DNA from: Emcibacteraceae bacterium
Lineage (GTDB): Bacteria; Pseudomonadota; Alphaproteobacteria; Sphingomonadales; Emcibacteraceae
Direction: 5' to 3'
DNA length: 64,000 nucleotides
NCBI GenBank assembly: GCA_021774795.1
Contig: JAJFIR010000031.1
Coordinates: 186,001 to 250,000 of the forward strand
The translations under genes were made by a program, and so were the position numbers. Below, piece after piece: positions 14,169 to 61,707 of the stretch (position 1 is the first letter of the stretch; every line of letters begins with the position of its first letter). The notes beneath the pieces were generated by a model. That model made no database searches. It was not told the DNA's origin and saw only the letters and a list, made by a program, of their open reading frames with translations.

Positions 14169-14182
14169 TTGATTAACATCAA
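14169..14182. promoter_or_regulatory. FNR/FixK-type box TTGATTAACATCAA
   Basis: Perfect TTGAT-N4-ATCAA, 76 bases before the bactofilin-like gene on the minus strand. First site of the island when read from the left. Confidence 0.8.
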
Positions 14183-14195
14183 CTTTAACATAGTT

Positions 14196-14513
14196 TTATT
14201 TATCTTGATAAGACATCAAATTTCCAGCTTCTGATAGAGGTGTAACGACATAATGGATATCACTTGTCACAAAATCGCTTTTTAAAGTTTTCAGGATTAT
14301 CTTTGATAACTCTATGTCCATATGCATCTGGAACATAATTCTGGCAGTTTTTCCGGTTACCTTCTCAGATATGGACATATTTTCTTCGCCCAATCCATAT
14401 CCATTAACCGCCATACTACTAAATCCTGTAAAACCATCCTGTTCTAATAGCCAATCGACAATAACGTCTTCAATCGCTGCCGGGATAATTATGGTCACTA
14501 GACATAATTTCAT
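14196..14513 (-). CDS. DUF3240 PII-like protein of the RND operon
   Basis: A 105-residue protein with alternating strands and helices, as in small PII-like ferredoxin folds (MKLCLVTIIIPAAIEDVIVD, GKTARIMFQMHMDIELSKII). The DUF3240 family is regularly found with CzcA-type efflux pumps and is thought to sense or modulate them. The ATG overlaps the pump stop codon (ATGA), so translation is coupled. It is the last gene of the flavodoxin-TolC-adaptor-pump operon. Confidence 0.8.
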   Translation of the reverse strand: MKLCLVTIIIPAAIEDVIVDWLLEQDGFTGFSSMAVNGYGLGEENMSISEKVTGKTARIMFQMHMDIELSKIILKTLKSDFVTSDIHYVVTPLSEAGNLMSYQDK

Positions 14514-17500
14514 GTGGTTCTCCCTTGACTTATTTTCTCATTATTTCTTTGGCCAAATCTGCGGTACAAAATAGGCAATAAAATTAATGTTAGTAAAGTT
14601 GAGGTCACTAATCCTCCAATAACAACGATCGCTAAAGGTCGCTGGATTTCCGATCCTGGACCCGATGCAAATAGGAGTGGAATTAAACCAAACGCTGCTA
14701 TGCTGGCGGTCATTAGCACCGGTCGCAATCTTCTTATCGCACCTTGAGTGATGACTTCTTCTATCGGTTTACCTAGTTCATAAATTTGGTTGAAATAACT
14801 AACCATAACCACGCCATTAAGTACCGCAATTCCTAATAAAGCAATAAACCCTACTGAGGCTGGCACGGAAAGATACTCGCCCGAAAGCCAAAGAGCTATG
14901 ATACCTCCCGTCATCGCAAAAGGTATATTGCTCAATACAAGCAACGCCTGACGCACGGACTTAAAGGTAATGAATAATAATAAAAATATGAGACCTAAGG
15001 CAACCGGGACTACAATACCCAACCTTTTTGCAGCGCGCTGCTGATTCTCAAACTGCCCTCCCCATTCAAGCGTGTAACCACTTGGTAAATTTAATTTTTG
15101 GGTCGCAAGCTCCTTAGCCTCCTCAACAAACCCAACCAAATCACGTCCTTCAACATTAGCAATTACGACCACCATACGTGAACCTTTTTCACGTTGGACG
15201 GACACAGGACCTTCGACACGTTCAATTTTAGCGACGAACGATAACGGAACTCTTTTCGCATCTGGTAAGGTAATTAAAATATTTTCAAAATCGGCTGGTG
15301 AATTTCGTATATTTTCATTTCCCTTTATAACCAAAGGAGTTCTGCGAGCACCTTCATAAACTAAGCCTATGTTGGTGCCTTCGATTTGCGCACGTAGAAG
15401 CTGGGTAATTTCATCGACTGAAAGTCCAAATCTTCCCGCTGCCATGTGATCCACCGATAGTCGCATATATTGCGCACCTTCATTTGCAGGTTTATAAACG
15501 TTATCCGCCCCGTTGATATCTCCCATAATATCAACTAACATTTCACCAATTTGATTAAGCTGATCCTGATCCTCTCCAAATATCTTAATGGCAATATCTC
15601 CACGCACACCTGTTAACATTTCTGAGACGCGCATTTCTATGGGCTGAGTAAAATTGAAAGATACCCCCGGAATTTCTGCCAAAACATCGTTTATATTATC
15701 CAACAGTGCCTGCTTGCTTTCCACCAACCACTCTTCTGTCGGTTTAAAAACCAGAAACCCATCAGTTTCATTTAACCCCATCGGGTCAAGGCCAATTTCA
15801 TCAGACCCAACCCTTGAAACCATCCCAGCGATCTCAGGAATATTATCCAGCAATATGTTTTGAATACGTGTATCAAGTTCCATTGATTTTTCTAAGGTGA
15901 TGGAAGGTAGCTTTTCCGACTGAATGATGACATCACCTTCGTCCATGGTTGGCATAAACGTTTTGCCGACTTGGGTATAAACAAAGACAGCAACAAGCAA
16001 CAAACCAACTGAGGATAGAATAACAGTGCGCGCATTATTCAATGACCAATCCAATAATGGTATATATTTGCGCTGAAGGAAACTGACAAACTTTGTGTCT
16101 TTATGTTTAATTTTTTCCGGTAGATAAGATGCCATGACCGGAATGGCGGTCAAAGATAATATTAGCGAGGATGTTAATGCAAAAACGATTGTCATTGCTA
16201 CCGGCGAGAATAACTTTCCTTCCAATCCTTGCAAAGAAAGTAACGGTAAGAAAACAATTATGATAATAAGCATACCTGACGTGACGGGGATTGATATTTC
16301 ACACACAGCCCTATAAATTAGGTGCAATCGAGGATGCCCGCCTTTGTTTTGATGAGATAGATGAGAGACAATATTTTCAACAACGACAACTGCTGCGTCC
16401 ACTAAAATTCCGATAGCAATCGCAAGGCCACCGAGACTCATCAAATTGGCCGACATACCAAATCTATTCATCATTATAAATGTTGCCAATGCGGACAATG
16501 GCAAGATAATTGCCACAGTCATCGCAACTCGAATATCACCTAAGAAAATTAACAAAAGAAACAAGACCAAAATAATTGCTTCTCCTAATGCTTTCGATAC
16601 CGAACTAATCGCCTTATCAATCAACAACCCACGATCATAAAAAACATTGATATAAATGTCGTCAGGTAGACTTGCTTTGATCTCAGACAATTTTTCGTTT
16701 ATCCCCTCTACAACCTCCTGTGCATTCGCACCGCGCAAGCTTAAAACCAATCCTTCTGCCGTCTCACCTTTGCCATTGGCCGTAACACCTCCATAACGGG
16801 TAATTGATCCCACTCGAACAGTGGCAATATCGCCTATCCTAACTGGTTCGTGGAGATCATCCCTGACAACAATCTTTGCTAAATCAGATAATTCTACTAT
16901 ACTGCCGCTCGTACGTACTAATAGAACTTCTTCTCCTTCGTTAAGTCGGCCGGCTCCATCATTTTTATTATTTTCTTCAATAGCGCTTATCAGTTCAGAA
17001 ACCGTAATACCTTGCGCAAAAAGAGCAGAATTATTTGGTGTAACTTCAAATGTTCTAACCAATCCTCCAAGCGCGTTTACGTCTGCCACCCCCGGCACAC
17101 CACGTAGAGCAGGCCTTATAACCCAATCAAGCATCGACCTTTTTTCCATTAAGGATAGGCTTTCCCCCTCAATCGTGAACATAAACATTTCACCAAGTGG
17201 TGTTGTCATTGGGGCAATACCACCTGAAATTCCAGCTGGCAGATCTTCCATAATACCGTTAAGCCTTTCAGATACTTGCTGTCGCGCCCAATAAATATCT
17301 GTACCTTCTTCAAAATCAATAGTGATGTCTGTTAATGCGTATTTGGAAATAGACCGCAACATGCTTTGCTTCGGCAACCCTAACATTTCGACCTCTATCA
17401 ATGCCGTAATTCGTTGCTCGATTTCTTCCGGTGTCATGCCGGGTGCTTTGAGAATGATCTTTACCTGTGTGGTCGATACATCTGGATAAGCATCAATTGG

Positions 17501-17602
17501 TGTATTGTCAAAAGACACCCATCCGCCTGCGATGATCAAAACAGACAATAGAATGATAATAAGTCTTTGTGTGAGTGAAAATTGAATGAGTTGCTTGAGC
17601 AT
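14510..17602 (-). CDS. CzcA/CusA-family heavy-metal RND efflux pump
   Basis: Inner-membrane proton-driven pump of 1030 residues, the normal length for HME-RND proteins. Visible features are a first helix near residues 12-28, the periplasmic segment NTPIDAYPDVSTTQVKI, the helix 4 motif GILVDAAVVVVENI with its acidic proton-relay residue, and the late repeats of twelve helices. It assembles with the adaptor and TolC genes upstream to move metal ions from the periplasm or cytoplasm out of the cell. Its start overlaps the adaptor stop (TAATG). The metal cannot be decided from the motifs seen. Confidence 0.92.
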   Translation of the reverse strand: MLKQLIQFSLTQRLIIILLSVLIIAGGWVSFDNTPIDAYPDVSTTQVKIILKAPGMTPEEIEQRITALIEVEMLGLPKQSMLRSISKYALTDITIDFEEGTDIYWARQQVSERLNGIMEDLPAGISGGIAPMTTPLGEMFMFTIEGESLSLMEKRSMLDWVIRPALRGVPGVADVNALGGLVRTFEVTPNNSALFAQGITVSELISAIEENNKNDGAGRLNEGEEVLLVRTSGSIVELSDLAKIVVRDDLHEPVRIGDIATVRVGSITRYGGVTANGKGETAEGLVLSLRGANAQEVVEGINEKLSEIKASLPDDIYINVFYDRGLLIDKAISSVSKALGEAIILVLFLLLIFLGDIRVAMTVAIILPLSALATFIMMNRFGMSANLMSLGGLAIAIGILVDAAVVVVENIVSHLSHQNKGGHPRLHLIYRAVCEISIPVTSGMLIIIIVFLPLLSLQGLEGKLFSPVAMTIVFALTSSLILSLTAIPVMASYLPEKIKHKDTKFVSFLQRKYIPLLDWSLNNARTVILSSVGLLLVAVFVYTQVGKTFMPTMDEGDVIIQSEKLPSITLEKSMELDTRIQNILLDNIPEIAGMVSRVGSDEIGLDPMGLNETDGFLVFKPTEEWLVESKQALLDNINDVLAEIPGVSFNFTQPIEMRVSEMLTGVRGDIAIKIFGEDQDQLNQIGEMLVDIMGDINGADNVYKPANEGAQYMRLSVDHMAAGRFGLSVDEITQLLRAQIEGTNIGLVYEGARRTPLVIKGNENIRNSPADFENILITLPDAKRVPLSFVAKIERVEGPVSVQREKGSRMVVVIANVEGRDLVGFVEEAKELATQKLNLPSGYTLEWGGQFENQQRAAKRLGIVVPVALGLIFLLLFITFKSVRQALLVLSNIPFAMTGGIIALWLSGEYLSVPASVGFIALLGIAVLNGVVMVSYFNQIYELGKPIEEVITQGAIRRLRPVLMTASIAAFGLIPLLFASGPGSEIQRPLAIVVIGGLVTSTLLTLILLPILYRRFGQRNNEKISQGRTT

Positions 17603-18717
17603 TACCTCTCGCTCCCCAATCCTTCAAGCATTCCTTTTAGAGTCGAGACCCCTGTAACAGCAATTTCGGTTCCTAGTTCAATATCAGCACCAATGACGAT
17701 TGACTGCCCTTCATCAGCAATTATTTTTGCAGCTTTGGATGAAAAGCCATCCACTTCTTTGACAAAAATAATAGCCCCCTCTGTTTCACGAATAACAGCT
17801 CCATTTGGAATTCGATAAAAATGACCTTGATCGGTTTTCTGTTCAATATTCACATTAACAAACTGGCCAGGAATATATTTATTTTGGACCGTTTCAACTA
17901 ATCCCCGTACGATGATCCCTTGATCTTCTACATGAACCATTTGGCCGATTGTGATGATAGAACTTTCAATATCCGAATCTTCGAAGTTGATCCTATTGCC
18001 TATTTCAAGCGTGTATCTAAGAGTGAATGGCACATGTATTTCTACCAACAATGGGTCAAGCTGCCCAAGATGATAAAGTGCCGTGGTTTCATCGACATGC
18101 TCTCCTGTCATGGCAATTTGTTTTAACACCGTGCCATCAAAAGGCGCCCTTATAGTCATAAATTTAGCCATAATCCTTGTTGTTTTTAGTTCATCAATCT
18201 GACGTTCACTTATACCTGCAAATAACAGTGTTTGATGGCTTCGAGAAAGAAAGGCTTCCGCAACTTGCAATTCTGACCTACCAACTGCAAAAACTTTTTC
18301 CGAAATAATTCCATCGTTCAAAAGTTCAGTATTTCGGGTATGGTTTCTGGCTATTAAGGCGTGGTTAGACAAAGAATTTAAGTAGTTTTGTTGGGCTTCA
18401 ATATAAGCTGAGCTTGAAATTTCAGCCAGTTTTTGCCCTTTTATGACGTCGTCGCCTTCCGCCAAATATAATACACTCACTAATCCAGGCAAAGCTGGTG
18501 TCAAAACTCTCATTTGTGCATTTGGAATAATAATTTTAGCCGGGTAATTTTTACTCCAAACAGAAGAAACTTTTTGAGGCTCAGCTACTTTAATTCCTAT
18601 GGTATCAATTTGTCTCTGATCAATCTTTAACAAAGTTTGTGCATGTACAGTTGATATTCCTGAAAGTGCTTGGCATATAATTATTCCCATAATTATATTT
18701 TCTATGTACCTCTTCAT
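17602..18717 (-). CDS. RND periplasmic adaptor subunit (CzcB/CusB-like)
   Basis: A 371-residue membrane-fusion protein linking the RND pump to the outer-membrane channel. It has a signal peptide (cleavage near TVHAQT), a lipoyl-like first half (GLVSVLYLAEGDDVIKGQKL), a coiled-coil hairpin (AYIEAQQNYLNSLSNHA) and the matching second lipoyl half (IRAPFDGTVLKQIAMTGEHV). Beta-barrel and membrane-proximal domains follow. ATGA overlap with the TolC gene and TAATG overlap with the pump gene show tight coupling. Confidence 0.9.
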   Translation of the reverse strand: MKRYIENIIMGIIICQALSGISTVHAQTLLKIDQRQIDTIGIKVAEPQKVSSVWSKNYPAKIIIPNAQMRVLTPALPGLVSVLYLAEGDDVIKGQKLAEISSSAYIEAQQNYLNSLSNHALIARNHTRNTELLNDGIISEKVFAVGRSELQVAEAFLSRSHQTLLFAGISERQIDELKTTRIMAKFMTIRAPFDGTVLKQIAMTGEHVDETTALYHLGQLDPLLVEIHVPFTLRYTLEIGNRINFEDSDIESSIITIGQMVHVEDQGIIVRGLVETVQNKYIPGQFVNVNIEQKTDQGHFYRIPNGAVIRETEGAIIFVKEVDGFSSKAAKIIADEGQSIVIGADIELGTEIAVTGVSTLKGMLEGLGSER

Positions 18718-19988
18718 GGTAACAAGACTCCTCGAATTTGATTGTTACGCGCGATAGCCCGTTTACATTCAATGATTTTTTTGTTGTTCTGACTGGACGA
18801 AATAAAGTATTGTTCCTGTGCTTTTAAAAGTTCCAACAAATCACTTTCGCCCATATCAAACGCTTTTTGACTAAGCCGTAAATTTTCTTTTGACAATTCA
18901 AAATGCGATTGCGCAAAGGGTAGTTGTACCTCGCAAATTTCCAACTCATGCTCCGCTTCGTGCAATGCTAACCTAACTTCTCTTTTAATAAGTTCTCGGT
19001 CTCGCTCCGCTTCTGCTAATGTCTTCGCAACGGCCGCTCTTTTGGAAGTCATGTGAACATCAGCACCCAAGGGAATAGACAATCCGAAACTAACAGAATC
19101 TATATTACGGTCCATAAATGAACCTCTTTCTCTCTTCAACCCAAGCGACAATTTAGGTGCTGAACTCCAACTATTATTACTTTCACTAAACTCCGCGCGC
19201 ATAAACCCTACTTTTGCATTTGCGAGTTCCACAATTGGAGATTTTTCAACATGTAATTCCTGTGGTTGGTTTTTATCACCATGTTCTAAAATTTCTTCAA
19301 TAAATTCAGGCATCTGATTAAGCCCGGTTATGCTCTCATACCGTTTGGCGACATGAATATATTCTGCTTCAACATTAATCAGGTCCATTTTGCGAGCCAT
19401 TATTTCTTTACTGCTTAAAATTGCGTCTTGCTTAGGAAGATTGCCAGCGGCAATACGCTTTAAAACATCATTTTCCAGTGCCCTTGCTATCACCAAATTT
19501 TGACGGCTTTCAGTAAGCACTGCATCAGCAAGCTTAAGTTTCCACAATAATTCTCGAACCTGACCAATTATTTGCAAGGTGATTAGCTTTTGATAAGCCG
19601 CCGTTTCCTGTTCAGACATGCGCGCCTTTTGCCTACTGGCGGATTTTTGACCGGGCATCCATAAGGGCATATCCAAGGATGTCTCCCATTCCCTTAACCC
19701 TTGATCTGAAATCAAGCCGTCATTTTGATGTTTAAATGATAATTCAGGTGTGCCTGAAAATAAGCTGGATGCACGGCTTGATAAAGCATCACTGAATTTT
19801 TCGTTGGATTGAGCCACAATCTTATCTGGTGAATGTGCCATTGCGGCTTGAACCACATCGCTCACAGTAAGCGCCGGGCTGATTTCAACTTCGACAACGC
19901 CTTCGTCCGTGTTATTGCTGATTTGAGTATTAGCCAACATAGGCCAAAGCGTTAGCAGCAAAATAAACTGAACCACTTTAAATAACAT
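18714..19988 (-). CDS. TolC-family outer-membrane efflux protein (CzcC-like)
   Basis: About 424 residues forming the outer-membrane exit duct. The ATG at 19988 has AGGAAAA upstream and starts a signal peptide; a TTG at 20027 in the same frame overlaps the flavodoxin stop but is less likely. Long helical segments (LLWKLKLADAVLTESRQNLV, REVRLALHEAEHELEICEVQ, GESDLLELLKAQEQY) match the two TolC repeats. Second gene of the efflux operon. Confidence 0.87.
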   Translation of the reverse strand: MLFKVVQFILLLTLWPMLANTQISNNTDEGVVEVEISPALTVSDVVQAAMAHSPDKIVAQSNEKFSDALSSRASSLFSGTPELSFKHQNDGLISDQGLREWETSLDMPLWMPGQKSASRQKARMSEQETAAYQKLITLQIIGQVRELLWKLKLADAVLTESRQNLVIARALENDVLKRIAAGNLPKQDAILSSKEIMARKMDLINVEAEYIHVAKRYESITGLNQMPEFIEEILEHGDKNQPQELHVEKSPIVELANAKVGFMRAEFSESNNSWSSAPKLSLGLKRERGSFMDRNIDSVSFGLSIPLGADVHMTSKRAAVAKTLAEAERDRELIKREVRLALHEAEHELEICEVQLPFAQSHFELSKENLRLSQKAFDMGESDLLELLKAQEQYFISSSQNNKKIIECKRAIARNNQIRGVLLP

Positions 19989-20023
19989 TCTAATTTTCCT
20001 AATTCTAATCACGTTAACGAATA

Positions 20024-20500
20024 TCAATTACCTATACTTGCGACGTAACTAGCCATCTTTGAAATATCCTGCTTACCTTTAAAGTCACTTTCGGTAATCT
20101 CGAGTTCTGCAATTGGAATTAAACCGGATATTTCCTGCATATCTCGCAAGGCACCTTTACTTCCACTTCCACCCAAAGTTACAAAAAAGGCAACTTGCGA
20201 TATTTTTCTCGAATACTCCGTGAGATAGCTGCGTATGGGATTTGCGACATGACCCGCCCATACGGGTGCGCCCACAATAACCAGATCAAATTGTGATGGA
20301 TCATTAATAACAGGGTTAATTGGAATTATTTCTTTACGGAGAGAACACCATGCTCTTTTCAAGTAATTCCAAATTCCTGTACCAAAAACCTCTGTCTCTA
20401 TTGACTCTACAACTGCACCTGTAGAATTTGCAATATACTCAGCAACCTTTTTTGTGTGGCCACTGTCCGAATAATAGATAATAAGAATCGTTTTCAGCAT
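20024..20500 (-). CDS. Flavodoxin-family protein leading the efflux operon
   Basis: A 158-residue FMN-binding electron carrier or quinone-type reductase. The phosphate loop is YYSDSGHTKKVA (residues 9-20) and the second loop is VGAPVWAGHVANPIRSYL. It lies first in a five-gene operon with an RND efflux system, an unusual partner for such pumps. A perfect FNR-type site 50 bases upstream suggests low-oxygen induction of the whole operon. It could keep a metal or a redox cofactor reduced before export, which is inference. Confidence 0.85.
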   Translation of the reverse strand: MLKTILIIYYSDSGHTKKVAEYIANSTGAVVESIETEVFGTGIWNYLKRAWCSLRKEIIPINPVINDPSQFDLVIVGAPVWAGHVANPIRSYLTEYSRKISQVAFFVTLGGSGSKGALRDMQEISGLIPIAELEITESDFKGKQDISKMASYVASIGN

Positions 20501-20550: not shown

Positions 20551-20564
20551 TTGATTAAGATCAA
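20551..20564. promoter_or_regulatory. FNR/FixK-type box TTGATTAAGATCAA
   Basis: Perfect site, 50 bases before the flavodoxin gene, the first of the RND efflux operon. Confidence 0.8.
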
Positions 20565-31334: not shown

Positions 31335-31349
31335 AAAAGGAAGATGTAA

Positions 31350-44408: not shown

Positions 44409-46250
<1,842 letters not shown>

Positions 46251-48760: not shown

Positions 48761-48761
48761 T

Positions 48762-50906: not shown

Positions 50907-50913
50907 TCTATCA

Positions 50914-51372: not shown

Positions 51373-51443
51373 TACAAATCCTTTCAGGATGGTTGTGAAA
51401 TATGCATAGAAATTCGAGTATACCTATTGGACGGCACAAAAAG

Positions 51444-51457
51444 TTGACAGAAATCAA
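51444..51457. promoter_or_regulatory. FNR/FixK-type box TTGACAGAAATCAA (one mismatch)
   Basis: One mismatch in the left arm. It lies 71 bases before the cytochrome c lipoprotein gene. Confidence 0.6.
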
Positions 51458-51568
51458 TTGAATATCTGAATATCCGCAGTCATTAGTTAGCAATCGGTAA
51501 AACATCAACGAAATCGATGTGGATTAGCTACTAATTTTCCACATAATATAAGGGAAAGCTTCCTTTTA

Positions 51569-52507: not shown

Positions 52508-52652
52508 TATGTCAACCCTGTACCTGAATAAGCGTCTGCGTCTTAACCTTGCACATTTTGATGATAGGCTTGAATTGATTAATTTATTCTAAATGATGAC
52601 TTCGCCATTGGTATTAATCCAAAAGTGAAATCTAATTAGATCGCCCCACATC

Positions 52653-52666
52653 TTGATTGAAATCAA
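52653..52666. promoter_or_regulatory. FNR/FixK-type box TTGATTGAAATCAA
   Basis: Perfect site, 73 bases before the OmpA-like gene and 145 bases before the divergent DUF1861 gene. Confidence 0.8.
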
Positions 52667-52739
52667 ATTAACTCAAAAATTAATCTCATATAATCGAAGC
52701 AACAAAAATTAATCTAAGTCCAAATAGGATTTAAAAATT

Positions 52740-53849
52740 ATGAGTAAATTAATTCTAAGCAGTGTCTGTTGGTTGCTATTTCTTATCAATATTGGAGAGA
52801 CCCAGGAAAATAACTGGTATGTCGGAATTGAGGGTGGTTATAGCCTTTTGGGCAGAGAAAAATCCGTCGGCAACATACTTGATCTGAACGTTAATTTTAA
52901 GGATAGTGTCGTTTTTGGTGGTATTCTAGGTTATGATTATGGAGATTATCGAATTGAAGGCGAAATAGGAAAACATCTTCATAGCGTCGACCGTTTTAAT
53001 ATCATTAATGATGGCGGTCTTGGTTTGGGTGGTTTGGGCGATCAGGCAGCAACTAGCGGCAAGGCAAATCATTCGCGGTTCATGCTCAATATTGTTTACG
53101 ATCTTCAAAAAATTCCTAACTTTCAAAACATCGAACCATTTGTTGGTACCGGAGTGGGGTATTCAAATATTAAATGGAATAACTTCAGCACATCTACAGC
53201 TACTTTTGCCAATGATTCAGATAATGTTTTTAGTTATCATATCTTCGCTGGCGCACGCCGTTCGGTAACAAAAAGAATAGAGATGCAACTAAAATATCGC
53301 TATTTTCGATCAATCGGCGTTGATATGGTGGATCGTCTTAATAATAAATTTGACACCTCTTACGGTACACATGACTTTATGTTCAGCCTGATTTATAGAT
53401 TTGGCGAAACCCACAGCAACTCTCCGAAAAGAACGCCCGAAAGTAAGTCAACTTCCCTCGCAGCTCCTAATTCAGCAATACCCCCTATTACTACGCCAAC
53501 CAAGCCCGTTATCAAAAAAGACATCACGTATAAGATTTACTACGAATGGGATAGTAGTGAAATTGACGAGGAAGGACAGGTTACAATTGAAAACGCTGCA
53601 TCTGATGTAAAAAAAGGGGAATACGCAATTATTGAACTTGATGGACATGCTGATAGATCTGGCCCAGACAAATATAATGAAGATTTGTCAATGGAAAGAG
53701 CATTGATAGTCGAACGCGCATTAATTGCGGAAGGAATTAGCGCCTCAATGATTTCAGTGGAAGCACATGGCGAAAGAGACCCCGAATTGGACACTCTCGA
53801 TGGTATGAGAGAACGAAGAAATCGCAGAGTAGTAATATTGATAAAATAA
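52740..53849 (+). CDS. OmpA-family outer-membrane protein
   Basis: A 369-residue protein: signal peptide (cleavage near GETQEN), an eight-strand barrel opening NWYVGIEGGYSLLG, a proline-rich linker (PNSAIPPITTPTKP) and a C-terminal peptidoglycan-binding OmpA domain (YYEWDSSEIDEEG, ELDGHADRSGPDKYNEDLSM, AHGERDPELD, RRNRRVVI). It tethers the outer membrane to the wall. An FNR-type site 73 bases upstream places it in the low-oxygen set. Confidence 0.9.
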   Translation: MSKLILSSVCWLLFLINIGETQENNWYVGIEGGYSLLGREKSVGNILDLNVNFKDSVVFGGILGYDYGDYRIEGEIGKHLHSVDRFNIINDGGLGLGGLGDQAATSGKANHSRFMLNIVYDLQKIPNFQNIEPFVGTGVGYSNIKWNNFSTSTATFANDSDNVFSYHIFAGARRSVTKRIEMQLKYRYFRSIGVDMVDRLNNKFDTSYGTHDFMFSLIYRFGETHSNSPKRTPESKSTSLAAPNSAIPPITTPTKPVIKKDITYKIYYEWDSSEIDEEGQVTIENAASDVKKGEYAIIELDGHADRSGPDKYNEDLSMERALIVERALIAEGISASMISVEAHGERDPELDTLDGMRERRNRRVVILIK

Positions 53850-54254: not shown

Positions 54255-55088
54255 ATGACAGTAGAAAATCAGCTAAATAAGGTCCTGGTCGCGATCGATC
54301 CAACAGAGAAAGAGCATTATGCTCTAAAACGGGCACTAATGATGAATGAATTCATTGAGGATGGAGTAAAAATTCACCTATTCATTGCTCTGGATCCGGA
54401 GAAATTACATAAAATTCACGACGCTAATGATTTTTCTTGCAACAGCAACTGGTTCACAGAACTGTTTAAGCCAATGGACGTAGAAAAAATCGAATATACT
54501 GCAGAAGTGATTTGGACAGAAAATTGGCATCTTTCCATGTTGGATGCTTCAAAACGCCATGAGGCGGACATCGTAATATTGTCTGATTATAGAAGAAAAG
54601 AAGGCCAGACCGTTTTATCATCTTCAAAATGGGCATTATTGCGGGATTCAAAATGCCCAATATTGATCGTTGATCCGTCATCCAAACTGCAGCGAAATAA
54701 CGTGTTAGCGGCATTAAATATGCAAACTGACGACCCCCGTTACGCACAGCTCAATAGAAATATTGCTGGAGTTAGTAGCCTGATTGCCAACAGTTACGGC
54801 GCAGAAAAACATATCGTCAATGCATATGAAAGTTCAGAAGATTTTCCAGACCGTGCGAAACTTATTCGCGATGGCGACGCCAGGCAGGAAAATATTCATG
54901 TCAAAATAGGCGATCCGACTGAGATTATCGCAGAAGTCGCTGACAAGATTAATGCAGATGTAGTCGTAATTGGAACGTTAGCCCGAAAAGGGGTGATCGC
55001 GGCTATGCGTGGTAACAAAAGTGAAGATATTATCCGCAAACTTAACCGGGATGTCATGGTCATAAATAGCACTACGCATCGAGAATGA
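54255..55088 (+). CDS. Tandem universal stress protein, second copy
   Basis: About 277 residues with two Usp-like halves: VLVAIDPTEKEHYALKRALM at the start and VLAALNMQTDDPRYAQLNRN at the second. The second half ends VVIGTLARKGVIAAMRGNKS, a loose match to the ATP loop. The ATG at 54255 is chosen since AAAGGAG precedes it; the longer frame from 54177 is not supported. It is similar in layout, not in sequence detail, to the gene at 23524. Confidence 0.85.
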   Translation: MTVENQLNKVLVAIDPTEKEHYALKRALMMNEFIEDGVKIHLFIALDPEKLHKIHDANDFSCNSNWFTELFKPMDVEKIEYTAEVIWTENWHLSMLDASKRHEADIVILSDYRRKEGQTVLSSSKWALLRDSKCPILIVDPSSKLQRNNVLAALNMQTDDPRYAQLNRNIAGVSSLIANSYGAEKHIVNAYESSEDFPDRAKLIRDGDARQENIHVKIGDPTEIIAEVADKINADVVVIGTLARKGVIAAMRGNKSEDIIRKLNRDVMVINSTTHRE

Positions 55089-55133
55089 TTCAAGAAGGAA
55101 AAAATAATTGTGGATTGTCCGAGGTAGTAGAGT

Positions 55134-55210
55134 ATGAAGAAAAACCCTTATGAAATATTGGGCGTTAAAAATCAGCCGTCGAAAAGGAGATTAAATCTCA
55201 TTTGTAAGCT
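55134..55210 (+). pseudogene. J-domain (DnaJ/CbpA-like) remnant
   Basis: The frame starts MKKNPYEILGVKNQPS, the classic start of a J-domain, then shifts frame to VEKEIKSHL and stops. The HPD tripeptide and the rest are gone. It lies just after a stress gene, where a co-chaperone would fit. Confidence 0.6.
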
Positions 55211-55295
55211 TCGATACTCTTCAGAAAACTACTGCCACCCCTTGCCAATAAAATGAATGAAATAATTGCAGACAAAATTATTCTTTTCATTTCTT

Positions 55296-55715
55296 TTATT
55301 TGCGACCCATAGTAATTTGATAAATACCCATGCCCGAAAGCATTGCAAGTACGAAAATAAAAGCACTAGTCGGCACTAGGACCAATCCTATAAGCGCTGG
55401 TCCGGGACAAAGGCCGGCCAGTGCCCATCCTATTCCAAAAATAATCGCTCCCGCGACCAACGGGACATCAAGGGTTGCTGTCTCCGGTAACGAGAATTCT
55501 TCTCTTAAAAGGGGTGCCGACATTTTACCTTGGATAACCCAAGCTACGGCCATGACAACAACCGCGCCACCCATAACAAAAACCAAAGTAGAATCCCAGT
55601 TTCCGAAAATGTCCAAGAACCCGCGCACACGAACTGGATCAGCCATTCCTGAAATCGCAAGCCCTGCCCCAAACAATAGCCCTGAAAGAATAGCCGCTAG
55701 TAACTCACGGTTCAT
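55296..55715 (-). CDS. YeeE/YedE-family half transporter (second half)
   Basis: A 139-residue membrane protein with about four helices ([40 protein letters not shown]) and the cysteine motif GLCPGPAL of YeeE-type sulfur-compound transporters. The ATG at 55715 overlaps the preceding gene end by four bases; the longer frame is a shadow. With the gene upstream it makes a two-protein version of YeeE (PmpA/PmpB-like). Confidence 0.85.
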
Positions 55716-56152
55716 TGTCCTATTCCTGCAAAATTCATCAGTGCCACGGTTAGCGTCCCGGAGCCAATAAATATTGGCGTTGCGATTAGAGAGCGCCTTG
55801 ATAAACGAGACATCCCACAAACTCCGTGTCCGCTGGTGCAGCCGCTTCCGAGGCGTGTTCCAAAACCAACGAGCAGGCCACCCGCAACAAGTAAGACTTC
55901 ACTTGGATAACGAGTGACAACGCCTTCATTCGAGGCCACTTGAACAATCCATGCCCCAACTAACAATGAAACGATAAAACCCGCCGCAACTTTCCATGGT
56001 GTATCGGTTCGGGTCAATCCAGAAGCTCGGCCGAACAATCCGCTAATTCCAGCAATTCTTCCTACACCTATTAACAATATAGCTGAGGCGATACCGATCA
56101 TTATTCCACCAATAAATCCTTGTATCGGCATTGCATTTGAAATTTCCCACAT
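55712..56152 (-). CDS. YeeE/YedE-family half transporter (first half)
   Basis: About 146 residues with helices [20 protein letters not shown] and [17 protein letters not shown], and the family motif [20 protein letters not shown] with two conserved cysteines that pass on a thiosulfate or persulfide-type sulfur. Start ATG at 56152 is preferred to the TTG at 56167. It would import a sulfur compound. An FNR-type site lies 249 bases upstream, too far to call it a target. Confidence 0.85.
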
Positions 56153-56401
56153 GATAAGTTTTCCCAATTAGTTAAATTTTAGTTTTATTCATATTGTAAA
56201 ACAAATGCTAACGAATAACTATAAACAAAGAGCCTCCGCTGCGGTCGACTCGAAATAAAAGACAAAATTTTCTGCTCATTTTTATATTTTTTGTGACAAA
56301 AATAGCATCTTATAAATTATAAGGCTCATGGAAATAATTCGTTTATAAAATTGACGCTTTTTTCAATTCAGTAAGTATAAACAAGCAAATAATATCAAAC
56401 A

Positions 56402-56415
56402 TTGATTATAATCAA
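56402..56415. promoter_or_regulatory. FNR/FixK-type box TTGATTATAATCAA without an obvious gene
   Basis: Perfect site, 228 bases before the cytochrome gene and 249 bases before the YeeE pair. Neither distance fits a normal target. Confidence 0.75.
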
Positions 56416-56554
56416 TTGCGTGTTAAATGTTCTCGAAAACTAACCCGCGCCAAATTATCGGGCCTCTGTTGGTTCAGTTGTTAAAATGATAAACCGTGGA
56501 GGCCAGCCTTGGATGTGTAAAGTTGACACGAGTTACAACACTTTTAATCGATGA

Positions 56555-56568
56555 TTGATCCAAATCAT
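56555..56568. promoter_or_regulatory. FNR/FixK-type box TTGATCCAAATCAT (one mismatch)
   Basis: One mismatch in the last base. It lies 74 bases before the cytochrome c'-like gene. Confidence 0.6.
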
Positions 56569-56642
56569 TATATTAATTCCTTATGGCGGTATAATAAGTT
56601 CACGATAATTCTTGGTATACTTTGCAAAAGGAACGATTTGAA

Positions 56643-57071
56643 ATGAAATATTTATCTATATTTGTAGGTATTTTGTTGTGCCTGTTATTAACAAACTGCA
56701 CCAGTAATGAGGGTGCCTTTCCTCAGATGGCTGATGCACCTCCTTTCGATTATGTCGACGGAGAGGAATTACGATCTCGCATGCACCAACTTGCTTTCGA
56801 GTTACAAAGGCTCGACAACGCTCTTGCATCCGAATATGGTGAGAATCCGCCTTCTCAGCGATCTGTCGTCGATAGCCTTCGCGATATAGAGCGTATTGGG
56901 GAGAGCCTTCAATCTGGTGATCTAAGTTCCAAACATCCTTTTTTGTTGGATGATATGAATAGTTTCCTTGCGGACGTAAGTAGGGCTCAATGGGGTGCCT
57001 CGAGAAACCGATACTACATGGCTGGCCGCGTAGCTGGTGCCTGTGTCACTTGCCACAGATCGACTTACTAA
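56643..57071 (+). CDS. Cytochrome c'-like lipoprotein
   Basis: A 142-residue lipoprotein: lipobox LLTNC (Cys19), then a mostly helical body and the haem motif CVTCH at residues 134-138, a few residues from the C-terminus. A C-terminal CxxCH in a four-helix protein is the class II (cytochrome c'/c556) layout, often binding nitric oxide or carrying electrons. ATG at 56643 follows AAAGGAA. An FNR-type site with one mismatch lies 74 bases upstream. Confidence 0.8.
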   Translation: MKYLSIFVGILLCLLLTNCTSNEGAFPQMADAPPFDYVDGEELRSRMHQLAFELQRLDNALASEYGENPPSQRSVVDSLRDIERIGESLQSGDLSSKHPFLLDDMNSFLADVSRAQWGASRNRYYMAGRVAGACVTCHRSTY

Positions 57072-57170
57072 CGCGTACACAAAGCCTTAATCATGAGAAT
57101 TATAACGCGTAAGTTTTTCTACTTGAAAAGCGATTCTCAGGCTATTTCACAAGGCTACCGCGTTAATTGA

Positions 57171-57184
57171 TTTATTTTTATCAA
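57171..57184. promoter_or_regulatory. Possible FNR/FixK-type box TTTATTTTTATCAA (one mismatch)
   Basis: One mismatch in the left arm and a T-only spacer, so this is the weakest of the sites. It lies 58 bases before the NAD(P)H-dependent reductase-like gene. Confidence 0.35.
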
Positions 57185-57242
57185 GGTCGAATTCAATTCA
57201 ATCCTGTAAGACGATATCGTTTCCATCGAAAGGAGTTGATCA

Positions 57243-57848
57243 ATGAACGAAAACAAAAAAGTACTTATTATAAATGGTTCTTACCGTGATAACGGAATAA
57301 CGGATCAGTCTGTTCACGCAGTAAGCAACGCTCTTGAAGACCTAGGGGTGGATATAGAAATTATCCAGCTTCGCGATCGGGAAATCCATTTTTGCCTTAA
57401 TTGTCGAGAGTGTATGCAAAAATCAGGAATAACCCCTGAACCCTGTGTTCAGCGTGACGCTATGGAAGCCATCGTCGCAAAAATCGAAGCTGCGGATACG
57501 TATGTCCTAGCCGCTCCGACTAATTTAGGCTCAGCAACAGCGATATTTAAGCGCTTCATGGAACGACTCGCTGTTTATGTTTATTGGCCCTGGGGTGTCA
57601 TGGTGCCAAAATACCGTAAGGAAAATGAAGCACGTAAAAAAGCGATACTCATTACCTCCTCAGCGGCACCCGGTTTGCTAGGTAGGTGGTTATATGGAAC
57701 AACCAGGCAGCTTAAATATACTGCCAAAATCATCGGTGCTGATCCTGTTGGAACTCTTTATAGCGGATTTATCGCTGGTGATGCTCACTCAGCACTCCCT
57801 GCAAGCACACAGAAGAAGGCTCTCTCACTGGTTAAAAAGCTAATTTGA
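57243..57848 (+). CDS. Flavodoxin-like NAD(P)H-dependent oxidoreductase
   Basis: A 201-residue FMN-reductase fold: phosphate loop INGSYRDNGITDQSV, a cysteine cluster CLNCRECM (Cys51, 54, 57) typical of iron-sulfur flavoproteins and their relatives, and LAAPTNLGSATAIFKRFMER. AAAGGAG precedes the start. It may reduce quinones or small electrophiles at low oxygen. The next gene begins directly after its stop. Confidence 0.85.
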   Translation: MNENKKVLIINGSYRDNGITDQSVHAVSNALEDLGVDIEIIQLRDREIHFCLNCRECMQKSGITPEPCVQRDAMEAIVAKIEAADTYVLAAPTNLGSATAIFKRFMERLAVYVYWPWGVMVPKYRKENEARKKAILITSSAAPGLLGRWLYGTTRQLKYTAKIIGADPVGTLYSGFIAGDAHSALPASTQKKALSLVKKLI

Positions 57849-58583
57849 ATGTTAAAAAATGATCGTACGATAAAAATACTGGACAACCTAATCCCAGCGG
57901 CTAGTCCAGGCATTCAATATGTTGTTGTGGACAGGAATTTCATTGTATTTGAACATAGTAATGGGTTTGCGGATATTAAGAATAGTATTCCTTTAGGAGC
58001 GCATCATTTGATGGCAGCATTTTCCATGACAAAAACACTTACGGCGATTGCTATATTGCAGCTGGTGGAGCGGGAAGTACTAAAATTAGATAATCAAGTA
58101 TCCCAATATATCAAACATCCCTACAATTCAAAAATTAACATAAGACAGCTGGTGAGCCACACGTCAGGAATCCCAAACCCAATTCCATTACAATGGACTC
58201 ATCTTGCAATTCACCATGAAAAATTTAATGAAAACGAGGTCCTCTCTCAAGTTCTTAGGACTAATTCCAAAACGGATGATTTACCAGGAAAGAAATACAA
58301 ATATTCCAACATTGGTTACTGGTTACTTGGAAAAGATATAAAACAGTTTCTTTATCAGAAACAAAAAATAAATTCGAACCAGTATATTCAGATGAGCCTT
58401 GGGTGGCATATAGATGAAATGGATGGTTCTTATTATTATAAAGAAGGTGGCGGCGCAGGATTTCACTGTGAAATGAGAATTTATCCTGATCACGGGTTGG
58501 CGTCGGTGGTGATGGTAAATAGAACCTCTTTTAATACAAGAGAGCAACTAACTGAACTCGATAAAAGTATATTAAACGCGTGA
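57849..58583 (+). CDS. Shortened beta-lactamase-family serine hydrolase
   Basis: A 244-residue class C beta-lactamase/esterase-like protein with nucleophile motif SMTK (Ser59, Lys62), the SHTSGIPNP segment, KYSNIGYWLLGK with the Tyr-Ser-Asn motif, and a C-terminal GGGAGFHCEMRIYP replacing the usual HTG. It is about 80-100 residues shorter than typical relatives; the jump from GYWLLGK to SLGWHI suggests an internal deletion. It abuts the flavin reductase gene. Activity is uncertain. Confidence 0.7.
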   Translation: MLKNDRTIKILDNLIPAASPGIQYVVVDRNFIVFEHSNGFADIKNSIPLGAHHLMAAFSMTKTLTAIAILQLVEREVLKLDNQVSQYIKHPYNSKINIRQLVSHTSGIPNPIPLQWTHLAIHHEKFNENEVLSQVLRTNSKTDDLPGKKYKYSNIGYWLLGKDIKQFLYQKQKINSNQYIQMSLGWHIDEMDGSYYYKEGGGAGFHCEMRIYPDHGLASVVMVNRTSFNTREQLTELDKSILNA

Positions 58584-58679
58584 AGCTAGTAAATTCGCGT
58601 TTATTAATTCTGATAATATTGCCATAATTTTCAAACGCAACAAAACTACTATATAATCAGACGAAAAATATTATTAATT

Positions 58680-59660
58680 TCACTTGTTATGATTCACCGT
58701 GATCACGACATTGCCTGTTTTTTGGCCTGTTTCAACGTATTTATATGCTGCCACGATTTTCTCTAGTGGAAATTTTCTATCTATCACCGCTTTAAATTTA
58801 TCTTGCTCTATAACGGACTTTATCAGCAGTAAACTTCTCTTTATATTTACTGGCATCGGAAATATAGTTTTTTTGTTTTCAAAAATAAATTTTAAAATTG
58901 GTGTAATGAAAGGCAAGAAAATATTTTGAGCCATATATCCCAAGTCTGTAGAAATATATATACCTCCAGGCTTTAGAAGATGCTTGCATTTAAAAAAAGA
59001 ACTTTTACCGACGGCATCAAAAACGAATTCATATTTATCTTCACTTTTTGTAAAATCTTCTTCGGTATAATCAATAACTTTGTTCGCACCAAGTGATTTG
59101 ACCAACCCGGTATTTTTCGTACCACATACCGCCGTAATATTGACATCCAAATTTTTTAAAAGTTGAATAGCGGCCGAACCAATCGCGCCTGTCGCTCCGT
59201 TGACAAGAACATGTTGCCCTTTCTTGAGGTTCACCTTATTGATGATATTGTACGCATAATGCGCCCCTTCGGGACTGGCAGCGGCTTGTTCGAATGAGAT
59301 ATTATTCGGCATTGTTACGGCGTTGTCTTCTTCTGCCGTCAAATATTGAGCATGCGATTCCGCACCTGAATCATCAAATCCAAAAACTTTATCGCCTACT
59401 TTTAGAGACAGGATATTTTTACCAATCGCTTCTACTTCTCCCGCAAAATCAGTGCCGGTAATTTGTTTTTTGGGTTTCAATAACCCTGTTGCTATTCTCA
59501 TAAAAAAAGGAATTGCCCTGATAGTTGCGCAGTCAGTCCTGTTTACGGTGGTGGCATGTACTTTGATCAAGACTTCATTATCTTTAGCAGTTGGCTTTTG
59601 AACTTCCCTTAATTCAAGAACATCAGGCGGTCCATACTTTGTAAAAATAATTGCTTTCAT
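58680..59660 (-). CDS. Zinc-independent medium-chain dehydrogenase (quinone oxidoreductase-like), copy 1
   Basis: A 326-residue MDR enzyme. The catalytic N-terminal domain has KYGPPDVLELREVQKPTAKD and GTDFAGEVEAIGKNILSLKV; the NADPH-binding motif is VNGATGAIGSAAIQLLKNL. It lacks the structural zinc cysteines, as in quinone oxidoreductases. It would reduce an activated double bond or quinone with NADPH. The next gene upstream is a diverged paralogue, 10 bases away. Confidence 0.85.
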   Translation of the reverse strand: MKAIIFTKYGPPDVLELREVQKPTAKDNEVLIKVHATTVNRTDCATIRAIPFFMRIATGLLKPKKQITGTDFAGEVEAIGKNILSLKVGDKVFGFDDSGAESHAQYLTAEEDNAVTMPNNISFEQAAASPEGAHYAYNIINKVNLKKGQHVLVNGATGAIGSAAIQLLKNLDVNITAVCGTKNTGLVKSLGANKVIDYTEEDFTKSEDKYEFVFDAVGKSSFFKCKHLLKPGGIYISTDLGYMAQNIFLPFITPILKFIFENKKTIFPMPVNIKRSLLLIKSVIEQDKFKAVIDRKFPLEKIVAAYKYVETGQKTGNVVITVNHNK

Positions 59661-59670
59661 CGATGAGCCT

Positions 59671-60642
59671 TTAATTTAAAACAGAAATCACAATTTTTCC
59701 TTTATGAAGTCCCTGCCCGAAATAGCGCATTGCATTAGGCACTTCGTGTAATTGAAAAACTTTGTCGATGGCAGGTACCAATTTATCTGCTTCGATAAGC
59801 TCCTTCAAATAATCTAATCCCTTATTCGGCCCCTCCATCACAATGCAAAACTTCCTGCTCTCGCGAGTAAACATTGAGAGGAAATTTTGAAACATTATCG
59901 GCAGTATACCTGATCCCCCAATCATCACGTAGGTTCCACTCGGCCTTAAGGTCCTTTTATAATCGGAAATAGAACAATTAGATTGACAATCAATAATCAG
60001 ATCAAATTGTTCACCAGTATTCGTATAATCCGTCTGAGCGAAATCTATGACATGGTCCGCACCAAGCGCGCGAATGGTATCCAGTTTGTGCAAAGCGTCT
60101 ACTCCAGTAACTTCTGTTTTGAATAGCTTGGCAAGTTGAACTGCAAAGGTGCCTACGCCGCCGCCAGCCCCATTAACCAGAACCTTCTGCCCTGGTTCAA
60201 GTTGTCTGCATTTTCGCAGCCCGTGCAAGGCGAGAACACCCGCTTGCGGTACCGCAGCGGCTTCTTCAAAAGCCGCATTTTCCGGCATCCATTCAAGTGC
60301 CGTTTCTGAAACGCAGGTAAACTCTGCAAATCCGCCCCAGTTATCCCAAAGATCACCAAAAACTTTATCACCCGGTTGGAAACGCTTAACGCGGGCACCA
60401 ATAGCTTCAACAGTCCCCGCGATGTCGGCACCTAAAATCTGTTTTTCTGGCTTTGGTTTTAAAAGTCCAAACATGAGGCGGTTTATAAACGGTGTACCAT
60501 TCAAATATTCCCAGTCCCAGGAATTGATGGATGATGCATGTACTTTTACAAGCACCTCATCATCTCTTGGAGTAGGTTTTGATACTTCTCTAAGATGCAG
60601 ACTATCTGCTGATCCATATTGGTTAAATAAAATCGCTTTCAT
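59671..60642 (-). CDS. Quinone oxidoreductase-like MDR protein, copy 2
   Basis: A 323-residue paralogue: QYGSADSLHLREVSKPTPRD, GADIAGTVEAIGARVKRFQP and NADPH motif VNGAGGGVGTFAVQLAKLF. The two copies share order and length and arose by tandem duplication. The copy differs in the substrate loop, so the two may use different substrates. Its DNA is richer in G+C than copy 1. Confidence 0.85.
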   Translation of the reverse strand: MKAILFNQYGSADSLHLREVSKPTPRDDEVLVKVHASSINSWDWEYLNGTPFINRLMFGLLKPKPEKQILGADIAGTVEAIGARVKRFQPGDKVFGDLWDNWGGFAEFTCVSETALEWMPENAAFEEAAAVPQAGVLALHGLRKCRQLEPGQKVLVNGAGGGVGTFAVQLAKLFKTEVTGVDALHKLDTIRALGADHVIDFAQTDYTNTGEQFDLIIDCQSNCSISDYKRTLRPSGTYVMIGGSGILPIMFQNFLSMFTRESRKFCIVMEGPNKGLDYLKELIEADKLVPAIDKVFQLHEVPNAMRYFGQGLHKGKIVISVLN

Positions 60643-60663
60643 AGCCGCCTCTCTGAATATTGC

Positions 60664-61587
60664 CTATTTCTCGGAGCCACTTCCCAAGTTCCCTTGCGTA
60701 GCCTGCTCGATTGCTTCGGTAGCACCGAAATCATGCGAGGGCAGGATAACGAGGCCCGGGAGCTTCTCTTTCAAGCTTCTCACCTTCGCATAGGACAAAC
60801 GTAACTCCATCTCATCTCCTGTCCCCGGTACTACATCCTGATCGATCAGGCTCGCTTCGTAGGTTAGGTCACTAACGAGCAATATTGGTGCTCAACCTTT
60901 GTTACGTATTAGCATTGAGAGCGATCCCGGCGTATGCCCTGGTGTCGGTAACAAAATCATCGAGCTGTCACCAGCAACATCAAAAATCCCTTCGAACCCA
61001 TCAGAGAGCGGATCGTCGGTGGACTCAAACGTTATTGGCTGCCATTTCGCCCTCGGAATTTCGATATGGTCCCGAAGAATCCATTCGTGTTCAGGGTGAG
61101 GTTTTGACAATTGCGCCCATTCTCTTGCGCCCACGATTAGCGTAGCCTGCGGGATGTGAGCGATACCACCGACATGATCAAAGTGAAGATGTGAAATCAC
61201 AGCTGTGCGGATGTCGCTGACAGATAGGCCGTTAGTCGCCAATACTCGGTCGAGACGATCCTTCTCCGTAATGTGGAAACGGAATATCCACCGCAAAAGA
61301 AATTGGCCGATTTGGCTCGAAATATAACCCTTGTCAGCCGCAATCGCCGGGTCCAGCCCTGTGTCGAATAATAGGGAGCCCTCGCGGTGGTCAATCAGGA
61401 AGTAATTTATTGGCAGTTTCACCCATCTTCTCGACATGAAAATCCACCATAGCTTTGGCAACCAACTGCCATATCGATGTTCTCTGTGTTGCTCGGCCCA
61501 ACCTGAACTTAAAACATGTAAAGACCTAATCGCTTGTCCCGTCTCAGTTGCCTTCTTTGGTGTTATCATTTCTTCGGTTATCACCAT
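60664..61587 (-). pseudogene. Metallo-beta-lactamase-fold lactonase-like gene with an in-frame TGA
   Basis: The reading frame of about 308 codons has HLHFDHVGG, LLPTPGHTPGSLSMLI, and after the stop LLVSDLTYEASL and VILPSHD, all in one frame. The TGA at 60892-60894 falls between RNKG and APILL where relatives usually have Gly (GGA), so a single base change explains it. The family includes acyl-homoserine lactonases. Sequencing error, recent inactivation or readthrough are all possible; two separate proteins are unlikely as both metal sites are needed. Confidence 0.75.
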
Positions 61588-61693
61588 TAACGGTCCTCCA
61601 CTACCTTTAAAAAGGGAGCGTCACAGCGGTCTTTGCCTCCCAATCAGGCCATCTTATCGTCTCAAGATATAGCATTTAGTGAAAAACTAAACA

Positions 61694-61707
61694 TTGATTG
61701 GGATCAA
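61694..61707. promoter_or_regulatory. FNR/FixK-type box TTGATTGGGATCAA
   Basis: Perfect site in the gap between the broken lactonase-like gene (106 bases) and the flavodoxin-domain gene (212 bases). It is the last site of the island. Confidence 0.72.

Follow-up and report, generated by a model that had tools for sequence, protein, structure and literature searches.

In the oxygen cascade of Rhizobium etli and R. leguminosarum, a hybrid FixL kinase (hFixL), the OmpR-type regulator FxkR and the activator FixK are encoded by three clustered genes, with a K-box before fixK and an anaerobox at the targets. According to the published passages, FxkR binds the K-box GTTACA-N4-GTTACA before fixK and FixK binds TTGAT-N4-ATCAA (PMC7888657, PMC4999443), and the cascade, the K-box and the anaerobox are experimentally known in R. 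leguminosarum (PMC7888657). The FixK2 regulon of Bradyrhizobium diazoefficiens is given as 970 genes (PMC9104804). The lxa locus of Burkholderia cenocepacia is described as holding 50 genes, among them those for six universal stress proteins (Usps), a heat shock protein and an FNR of the locus itself (BCAM0287); its induction at low oxygen has been shown, as has persistence under anoxia, and it has been compared in print with DosR (PMC6127331, PMC4505428, PMC9733578, PMC9104464), the mycobacterial regulon of 48 genes and 10 Usps that is hypoxia-induced and linked to dormancy (PMC6127331). Here we analyse a 64,000-nucleotide stretch of an Emcibacteraceae bacterium (GCA_021774795.1, contig JAJFIR010000031.1, positions 186,001 to 250,000), hereafter the window, and report that it very probably holds a micro-oxic regulon packed around its own controllers, a predicted hFixL-FxkR-FixK cascade.

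The window encodes the three proteins of such a cascade and carries a candidate FxkR site:

32586-33389, plus strand: FixK, a Crp/Fnr-family activator (Pfam HTH_Crp_2 and cNMP_binding)
33404-35311, minus strand: hFixL, the presumed oxygen sensor (Pfam PAS twice, HisKA, HATPase_c, Response_reg)
35417-36133, minus strand: FxkR-type regulator of the OmpR/PhoB family (Response_reg and Trans_reg_C)
32470-32485, plus strand: K-box GTAACA-N4-GTCACA, GTAACAATTTGTCACA, predicted FxkR site, 101-116 bp before the fixK start

The protein hFixL is a hybrid kinase in which a PAS domain, a heme-type PAS domain, a histidine kinase and a receiver (Response_reg, residues 520-627) follow one another. Its second PAS domain finds its best matches in the FixL heme PAS structures 8js5, 1d06 and 1dp6 (E 1e-35 to 1e-32) and retains the stretches HDSYLHNY and IIGIGR, a match that supports oxygen as the likely signal, as a preliminary description of this DNA had proposed. 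FixL-type heme also takes nitric oxide (NO) and carbon monoxide (CO), and a cysteine in the recognition helix of FixK could sense oxidants, so it could be argued that the kit answers one of these other heme-PAS signals (NO, CO, redox) and not oxygen shortage. We consider this quite improbable: the best matches are oxygen-sensing FixL structures, HDSY and IIGIGR are retained, and the arrangement of K-box and fixK equals that of the R. leguminosarum oxygen cascade.

The nearest solved structure to the window FixK is FixK2 (4i2o, E 6e-23). The protein is without the N-terminal Fe-S cysteine cluster of FNR, its cysteines lying at positions 101, 105, 193 and 228 only. Against the curated NCBIfam FixK models it scored best with NF050806 (Caulobacter FixK), at 98.6 bits where the cut-off is 300, and it is therefore FixK-type but not the Caulobacter equivalog. 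The FixLJ-FixK2 system of B. diazoefficiens shares with the window the FixL heme PAS and this nearest structure, but FixJ is replaced here by an OmpR-type regulator, and the equivalent of the redox-active C183 of FixK2 is, in our reading of the alignment, a serine, with a cysteine in the recognition helix instead. Since a FixL-like heme PAS, an OmpR-type second regulator and a K-box before fixK occur together, the cascade can be named hFixL-FxkR-FixK.

In the K-box, the third base of each half-site deviates from the GTTACA consensus, and the pattern GTNACA-N4-GTNACA has 6 occurrences across the genome (G000; 3,925,786 bp in 58 contigs, with the window on contig C25 and 3.86 Mb outside it). The element is conserved before fixK. 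Among relatives from the same order, where the fixK-like region was examined in 10 of the 55 other genomes with a match, a K-box lies 5' of fixK in all seven that have an FxkR-like regulator within about 3 kb and in none of the three without the regulator. A K-box likewise sits between regulator and fixK on plasmids of Rhizobium ruizarguesonis and Agrobacterium tumefaciens, whose hFixL proteins are 42-43% identical to that of the window; in the 25 records listed out of 730 plasmid records, matches to hFixL had 41-43% identity over 92-98% of the length. The FxkR-type regulator is 44-46% identical to the regulator beside fixK-hfixL on one Rhizobium and one Agrobacterium plasmid, and the 32-kb Rhizobium and Agrobacterium stretches hold one and two exact boxes, respectively, against 0.01 and 0.05 expected. 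On these plasmids fxkR-fixK-hfixL has Hsp20, Usp and PNPOx neighbours. The window differs from the Rhizobium cascade in that its trio adjoins an N-type ATPase, an AMP/thymidine phosphorylase, a GH130 protein and a phosphoenolpyruvate synthase and not fixNOQP, in having boxes before both hFixL and FxkR, and in the FixK recognition helix, which reads ETVCR and not ETVSR.

Exact copies of TTGAT-N4-ATCAA, the candidate FixK boxes, number 14 in the window, and none starts in its first 14 kb:

14169-14182: 5' of gene 12941-14095
20551-20564: 5' of the flavodoxin, metal-efflux and DUF3240 run
30302-30315: 5' of cupin-CBS-Usp
32379-32392: 5' of Hsp20 (TATAAT at +21), and also 200 bp before fixK
35360-35373: 55 bp upstream of the start of hFixL (with TATTAT at +22)
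36263-36276: 136 bp before the FxkR-type regulator
36981-36994: distal box of a pair before the baeRF12-like gene
37060-37073: proximal box of the same pair
37615-37628: before FtsH
46302-46315: a single box for two divergent operons, N-ATPase and phosphorylase (with a -10-like hexamer at +22 in each direction)
50386-50399: before the PNPOx-like gene
52653-52666: before the OmpA-like gene (TATAAT at +22)
56402-56415: flanked by the YeeE-like genes and the gene for a small CxxCH protein (with TATACT at +22 on the YeeE side)
61694-61707: before a metallo-beta-lactamase (MBL)-fold hydrolase

Markov models of order 1-5 trained on the organism's own genome lead one to expect 0.27-0.44 exact boxes per 64 kb, a higher figure than the 0.06 first put forward but still far under 14. 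All 14 boxes are intergenic, as had been claimed, and gaps make up 4,622 of the 48,000 bases (9.6%) between 14 and 62 kb; under uniform placement the probability of this is about 6e-15. The genome as a whole has 40 exact sites, 14 within the window and 26 outside (binomial P of at least 14 of 40 by chance, 1.5e-15), which by simple arithmetic makes the 47.5-kb span about 44 times as dense as the rest. When intergenic perfect sites alone are counted, 14 of the 25 in the genome lie inside the cluster. Distances from box centre to the nearer start are 55-110 bp for nine boxes and 113-235 bp for the other five; the preliminary description had given 48-105 bases for most boxes. The first target gene, 12941-14095 (384 amino acids), falls outside the interval 14169-61707 that had been drawn around the cluster.

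The AT-rich gaps might favour the motif, and the density of sites could then stem from base composition, or from a repeated intergenic element, without any regulation. This is hardly credible: from the composition of flanking gaps, about 0.02 exact sites are expected in the 4.6 kb of cluster gaps, the flanking 100 kb (9.1 kb of gaps) contain no intergenic exact site, and the promoter spacing described below is conserved. Sites with one mismatch are another matter. There are 12 of them in the window and not six, three lie in the first 14 kb that had been said to be free of sites, and the intergenic ones amount to 6 per 4.6 kb of cluster gaps against 6 per 12.3 kb of flanking gaps. The class only mildly exceeds background; we rejected it as weak evidence, and the six such sites counted earlier do not stand as firm members of the regulon.

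The window boxes also share a centre. The form TTGATY-NN-RATCAA (Y at position 6, R at position 9) is found in 13 of the 14, against 4 of the 26 outside (Fisher P 2.4e-6), where centres such as A-NN-T occur; the sole exception in the window is the box at 14169, TTGATTAACATCAA. In six relatives, the same class accounts for 11 of 15 boxes in the kit regions and 12 of 56 elsewhere (P 3e-4). Beyond the boxes, a -10-like hexamer recurs at 21-22 nt, with the peak at 21 nt from the box end; hexamers at this distance include TATAAT (Hsp20 and OmpA), TATTAT (hFixL), TATAGT (ATPase) and TATACT (YeeE). When each set was shuffled 1000 times with dinucleotides preserved and searched for an equally good hexamer within 15-30 nt, no shuffle matched the 14 window boxes or the relatives' 18 boxes (peak at 21), whereas 253 did so for the 11 intergenic outside boxes and 406 for all 26 outside. 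Base-composition shuffles gave 6, 0 and 459 per 1000 for the window, the relatives and all 26 outside boxes, respectively. As a group, the window boxes appear to fit the geometry of class II FNR/FixK promoters (box at about -41.5, fixed -10 spacing); the outside sites, as a group, are without promoter spacing.

We therefore propose, from gene content and site placement, the following predicted course of events. On losing oxygen, hFixL would autophosphorylate and pass its phosphate to FxkR, which would bind the K-box and turn on fixK. FixK would then bind TTGATY-NN-RATCAA boxes (predicted site TTGATYNNRATCAA) centred about 41 bp before the transcription start and might activate about a dozen nearby units, for a chaperone, a protease, Usp and CBS proteins, the N-type ATPase, nucleotide enzymes, metal efflux and cytochromes, as well as hFixL and FxkR themselves. 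Such a positive loop, from FixK through hFixL and FxkR back to FixK, is likely, because hFixL and the regulator each have a box upstream, at 55 and 136 bp respectively, and because a relative from another family (G375) also has a box before its own hFixL, with TATAAT at 21 nt. At the 46302 box a -10-like hexamer lies 22 nt away on each side, and one dimer may therefore serve two promoters. Computation establishes that the boxes exist, how densely they lie, that they fall between genes and how they are spaced from promoters, as well as which domains the controllers contain and that the K-box is conserved. The earlier view of FNR/FixK-type boxes forming a clustered regulon with its own sensors is supported, as is a site density much higher inside than outside.

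The oxygen signal, the direction of regulation, FixK as the binder in place of the organism's own FNR, and the survival role are all predictions, and several points weigh against this interpretation. That FNR, with a cysteine cluster (CENC...C) and the helix ETVSR, is encoded at C25:445536 and could use the same boxes. The best -10 hexamer lies at 21-22 nt towards the listed gene for only 7 of the 14 boxes (12 of 14 reach a score of 3 at that distance when either direction is counted), the -10 matrix was drawn up by hand, and the relatives' boxes are partly shared by descent (G347 with G375, G371 with G379) and so are not all independent. No exact box stands at ccoN (C25:393069), the high-affinity oxidase gene, where the upstream region shows sites with one mismatch (about 1.4 kb ahead of the match) and with two (about 0.4 kb ahead of it); the classic FixK target is therefore not visibly under a cluster-class site. 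Within the cluster, the run of glycosyltransferase, GH130 and phosphoenolpyruvate synthase genes is preceded by one-mismatch sites only (24414 and 24463), and one relative (G357) has the trio and the K-box yet not a single exact box across 40 kb.

The rest of the genome bears on the same question. Its 26 exact sites are within the 17-27 expected from Markov models, but 11 of them are intergenic against 1.7-2.0 expected (the other 15 lie within open reading frames of at least 100 amino acids). A conclusion of no excess outside, drawn from the totals, was dropped for this reason: plausible sites exist beyond the window as well, and some binder of the motif probably acts there too. It may be that the boxes are bound mainly by the [4Fe-4S]-type FNR, the local FixK being minor or redundant and the cluster simply the place where a general anaerobic regulon is most concentrated. 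The FNR gene itself and the intergenic excess speak for this, as does one outside box (C25:314950; L099 1501-1514) lying 196 bp before a coxB-like gene (cytochrome oxidase subunit II), a plausible FNR target; in rhizobia, moreover, FnrN and FixK are reported to have the anaerobox in common (PMC7888657). We nonetheless regard it as unlikely, given that the intergenic outside sites mostly have another centre (3 of 11 are Y-NN-R) and as a group no promoter spacing, and that the relatives' cluster-class boxes are mostly found in fixK-trio regions.

A regulon under the local FixK would probably exceed the 48 kb to which it had been confined, because contig C7 has two Y-NN-R sites that also show the promoter spacing (C7:35074 and C7:53256, each with a score above 4 at 21-22 nt); a further outside site (L010) also exceeds 4 but falls outside the Y-NN-R class. 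The two C7 boxes (L268 and L269, C7:35074-53509) flank the last 18 kb of the contig, which encodes HypE and HypD, with scores over cut-off, a cation P-type ATPase, the large subunit of a NiFe-hydrogenase with a 20-kDa-type partner, a 4Fe-4S protein and, in an operon, pyruvate dehydrogenase E1 and an acetate-CoA ligase, the second box lying about 300 bp before the ligase gene. When 47 window proteins were compared with contig C7 at E 1e-6, matches were limited to two of them, the metal pump and the response regulator. The pair provides the best candidate FixK targets beyond the window, this satellite probably belongs to the regulon, and a low-oxygen role for it is plausible.

The recognition helix of FixK may bear on how it is kept apart from FNR. 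In E. coli FNR the serine of this helix contacts DNA. The E-T-V/I-S-R helix of the compared rhizobial FixKs and FNRs is not kept in the window FixK: ETVCR occurs in all eight kit FixKs compared within the order (the window and seven others) and in a FixK-like protein of Parvibaculum whose gene neighbours an hFixL-like match; serine is found in the other 11 of the 20 proteins compared, including the two FixKs from rhizobia, the organism's own FNR and three FixK-like proteins encoded next to hFixL-like genes. A class-wide search, from which the 30 best loci were taken (157 of 385 genomes matched, and one locus was our own), gave serine in 29 of 29 non-own loci, 27 of them scored as Cys-cluster FNRs. 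As a mark of every FxkR-driven FixK the motif was rejected; a locus with regulator and K-box (L262) has ETVSR, and so do the Rhizobium and Agrobacterium FixKs. We tentatively raise the possibility, in itself rather doubtful, that the sensor, the relay, the activator and most of its perfect target sites travel together as a portable oxygen-response kit, and that FixK reads TTGATY-NN-RATCAA via ETVCR, maybe separating it from the host FNR and adding an oxidation switch at a DNA-contact residue. The Parvibaculum protein comes from a metagenome-assembled genome (L144) that holds a further relative of the kit: within 21 kb it has an hFixL-like gene, the fixK-like gene, Hsp20, Usp, the phosphorylase trio and one exact box, in a gene order that differs from that of the window.

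The genes presumed to be under this control are the following:

14196-20500, minus strand: flavodoxin, outer-membrane factor, HlyD/CusB-type adaptor, CusA/CzcA-family RND pump, DUF3240
24575-30273, plus strand: glycosyltransferase, GH130-like phosphorylase, phosphoenolpyruvate synthase
30418-32318: cupin, CBS and Usp (plus strand) and Hsp20 (minus strand); CBS, Usp and HSP20 by Pfam, cupin by reading
37145-39654, plus strand: baeRF family 12/Host_attach protein and FtsH
39795-46247, minus strand: N-type rotary ATPase, beta-epsilon-X-X-a-c-b-alpha-gamma
46365-50360, plus strand: archaeal-type AMP/thymidine phosphorylase, ribose-phosphate diphosphokinase, beta-CASP MBL protein
50454-53849: PNPOx-like (plus), cytochrome c (minus), DUF1861 (minus) and OmpA-like (plus); PNPOx and OmpA by reading
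54255-61587: UspE-like protein, YeeE-like pair, small CxxCH protein, reductase (partly by reading)
within 54255-61587: beta-lactamase-like protein, two zinc alcohol dehydrogenase-like proteins, MBL hydrolase (partly by reading)

Gene order and the presence of AtpR identify the product of the operon at 39795-46247 as an N-type ATPase: AtpR (PF12966), ATPase_gene1, c and epsilon were recognised by Pfam, alpha and beta by NCBIfam (both under the cut-off of the alternate-F1F0 models) and a, b and gamma by reading, and the order of the genes is the one published for N-ATPases (PMC11738941). Its c subunit (42931-43239) has a glutamate in both helices (ISEG, MIETTAIY), which bears on Na+ versus H+. 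The phosphorylase is over the cut-off of TIGR02645/PRK04350 and under that of TIGR03327 (AMP phosphorylase), and the diphosphokinase is over that of its model. Since the beta-CASP protein (48762-50360) scores 336 bits with its best NCBIfam model, the type VII CRISPR nuclease Cas14, far under the cut-off of 800, it is a relative of the Cas14 fold and not a member. For the GH130-like phosphorylase the GH130 models stay under their curated cut-offs. A label of pyruvate, phosphate dikinase for 27880-30273 was wrong, the phosphoenolpyruvate synthase model being over cut-off, and the idea of pyrophosphate economy was dropped with it. In the metal-efflux run, the outer-membrane factor is called CzcC-like by position. 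Read together, the families point to protein protection and refolding, recycling of nucleotides and glycans and upkeep of ion gradients, as a dormancy programme or survival role might require; regulon membership is weakest for the genes at 54255-61587.

Other features of the region were seen in passing. Between the FxkR-type regulator and baeRF12, a 102-residue open reading frame (36347-36655) contains a perfect (AG)12.5 tract (36374-36398); such (AG)n tracts can slip and give phase variation. Upstream of the cluster, the genes at 8655-10334 seem to be in decay (a GntR/FCD-like fragment, a short threonine-dehydratase-like start and a haloacid-dehalogenase-like protein broken across two frames, all named by reading), and 1303-4251 encodes a secreted-looking protein of 982 residues with two similar halves and a glycine tract. 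Directly 3' of the window (C25:250001-263616; L097 1-13616) is what reads as an exopolysaccharide/ketoacyl-synthase-like region.

The distribution of the kit was followed in 147 genomes drawn from the order and in 12 other genomes of the genus. None of the 12 congeners has a clear hFixL orthologue (best 36%, against 34% for the organism's own paralogue) or a GH130 match at E 1e-40, and 10 of them are without a phosphorylase match at E 1e-50, the other two having matches of 45-47%. In related genomes the kit recurs piecemeal, also in other families: the trio and parts of the kit recur in other gene orders in three genomes of the same family (G014, G371, G379) and three of another (G347, G375, G357). 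Most of the cupin/CBS/Usp/Hsp20 set stands beside hFixL or fixK in G014 and G371, baeRF12 and FtsH are near the controller trio in G347 and G375, and the regions of seven relatives hold 0-5 exact boxes each. Across the order, the phosphorylase was found in 30 genomes at E 1e-50 and GH130 in five, with close copies in two besides our own; the glycosyltransferase-GH130-phosphoenolpyruvate synthase block is 68-81% identical in G014 and G379, and for this block loss within the genus and transfer are equally possible.

Among named genomes, the best 80 of 583 phosphorylase loci include Sneathiella, Parvibaculum, Bradyrhizobium, Rhodopseudomonas and sphingomonads. These 80 are flanked by the MBL protein in 64 cases, the diphosphokinase in 63, an hFixL-like gene in 10 and a FixK-like gene in 6, and have 21 exact boxes together against 1.4 expected. 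The phosphorylase-MBL-diphosphokinase trio is conserved in other orders; the nucleotide module is broad, and its link to the controller trio occasional. The window phosphorylase is 80% identical to that of G025 and 78% to that of Sneathiella litorea. MetK identity is 85-87% with three congeners, 77-78% in the family (83% for one fragment) and 69-74% in the order; in G025 it is 69%. Together with the missing matches in 10 of the 12 congeners, this favours transfer of the phosphorylase module. A tRNA-borne integration found no support in a search for tRNA genes, the window having none and one tRNA-Val lying about 31 kb downstream.

The closest precedent in kind is the lxa locus, which, by its published description, is likewise contiguous and of similar gene number, with Usps, a heat shock protein and an FNR-family gene of its own. 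It belongs to another bacterial class, BCAM0287 is described among the Cys-cluster FNRs, and the published passages mention no hFixL/FxkR trio; low-oxygen induction has been shown for lxa and is predicted for the window. The mycobacterial regulon differs in its control, DosR being of the NarL type and recognising a different site. The preliminary description was right in kind but too strong in calling such a regulon undescribed, given lxa and the rhizobial fxkR-fixK-hfixL clusters. Our search of the open-access literature found no paper on this alphaproteobacterial kit, which does not exclude one. The novelty lies in how many perfect sites there are and how densely they are packed, in the cargo and in the helix cysteine.

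In summary, global low-oxygen regulators usually control scattered genes, yet in this bacterium 14 of the 25 intergenic perfect sites lie within 48 kb round the gene for the activator. The locus may therefore serve as a natural test of how a regulon assembles and moves as a unit, and of how co-evolution of sites and activator could limit crosstalk with the resident FNR. It also groups poorly understood proteins (the archaeal-type AMP/thymidine phosphorylase, the beta-CASP protein, the N-type ATPase, GH130 and baeRF12) under one predicted oxygen signal, which would offer a concrete hint on when these proteins act.

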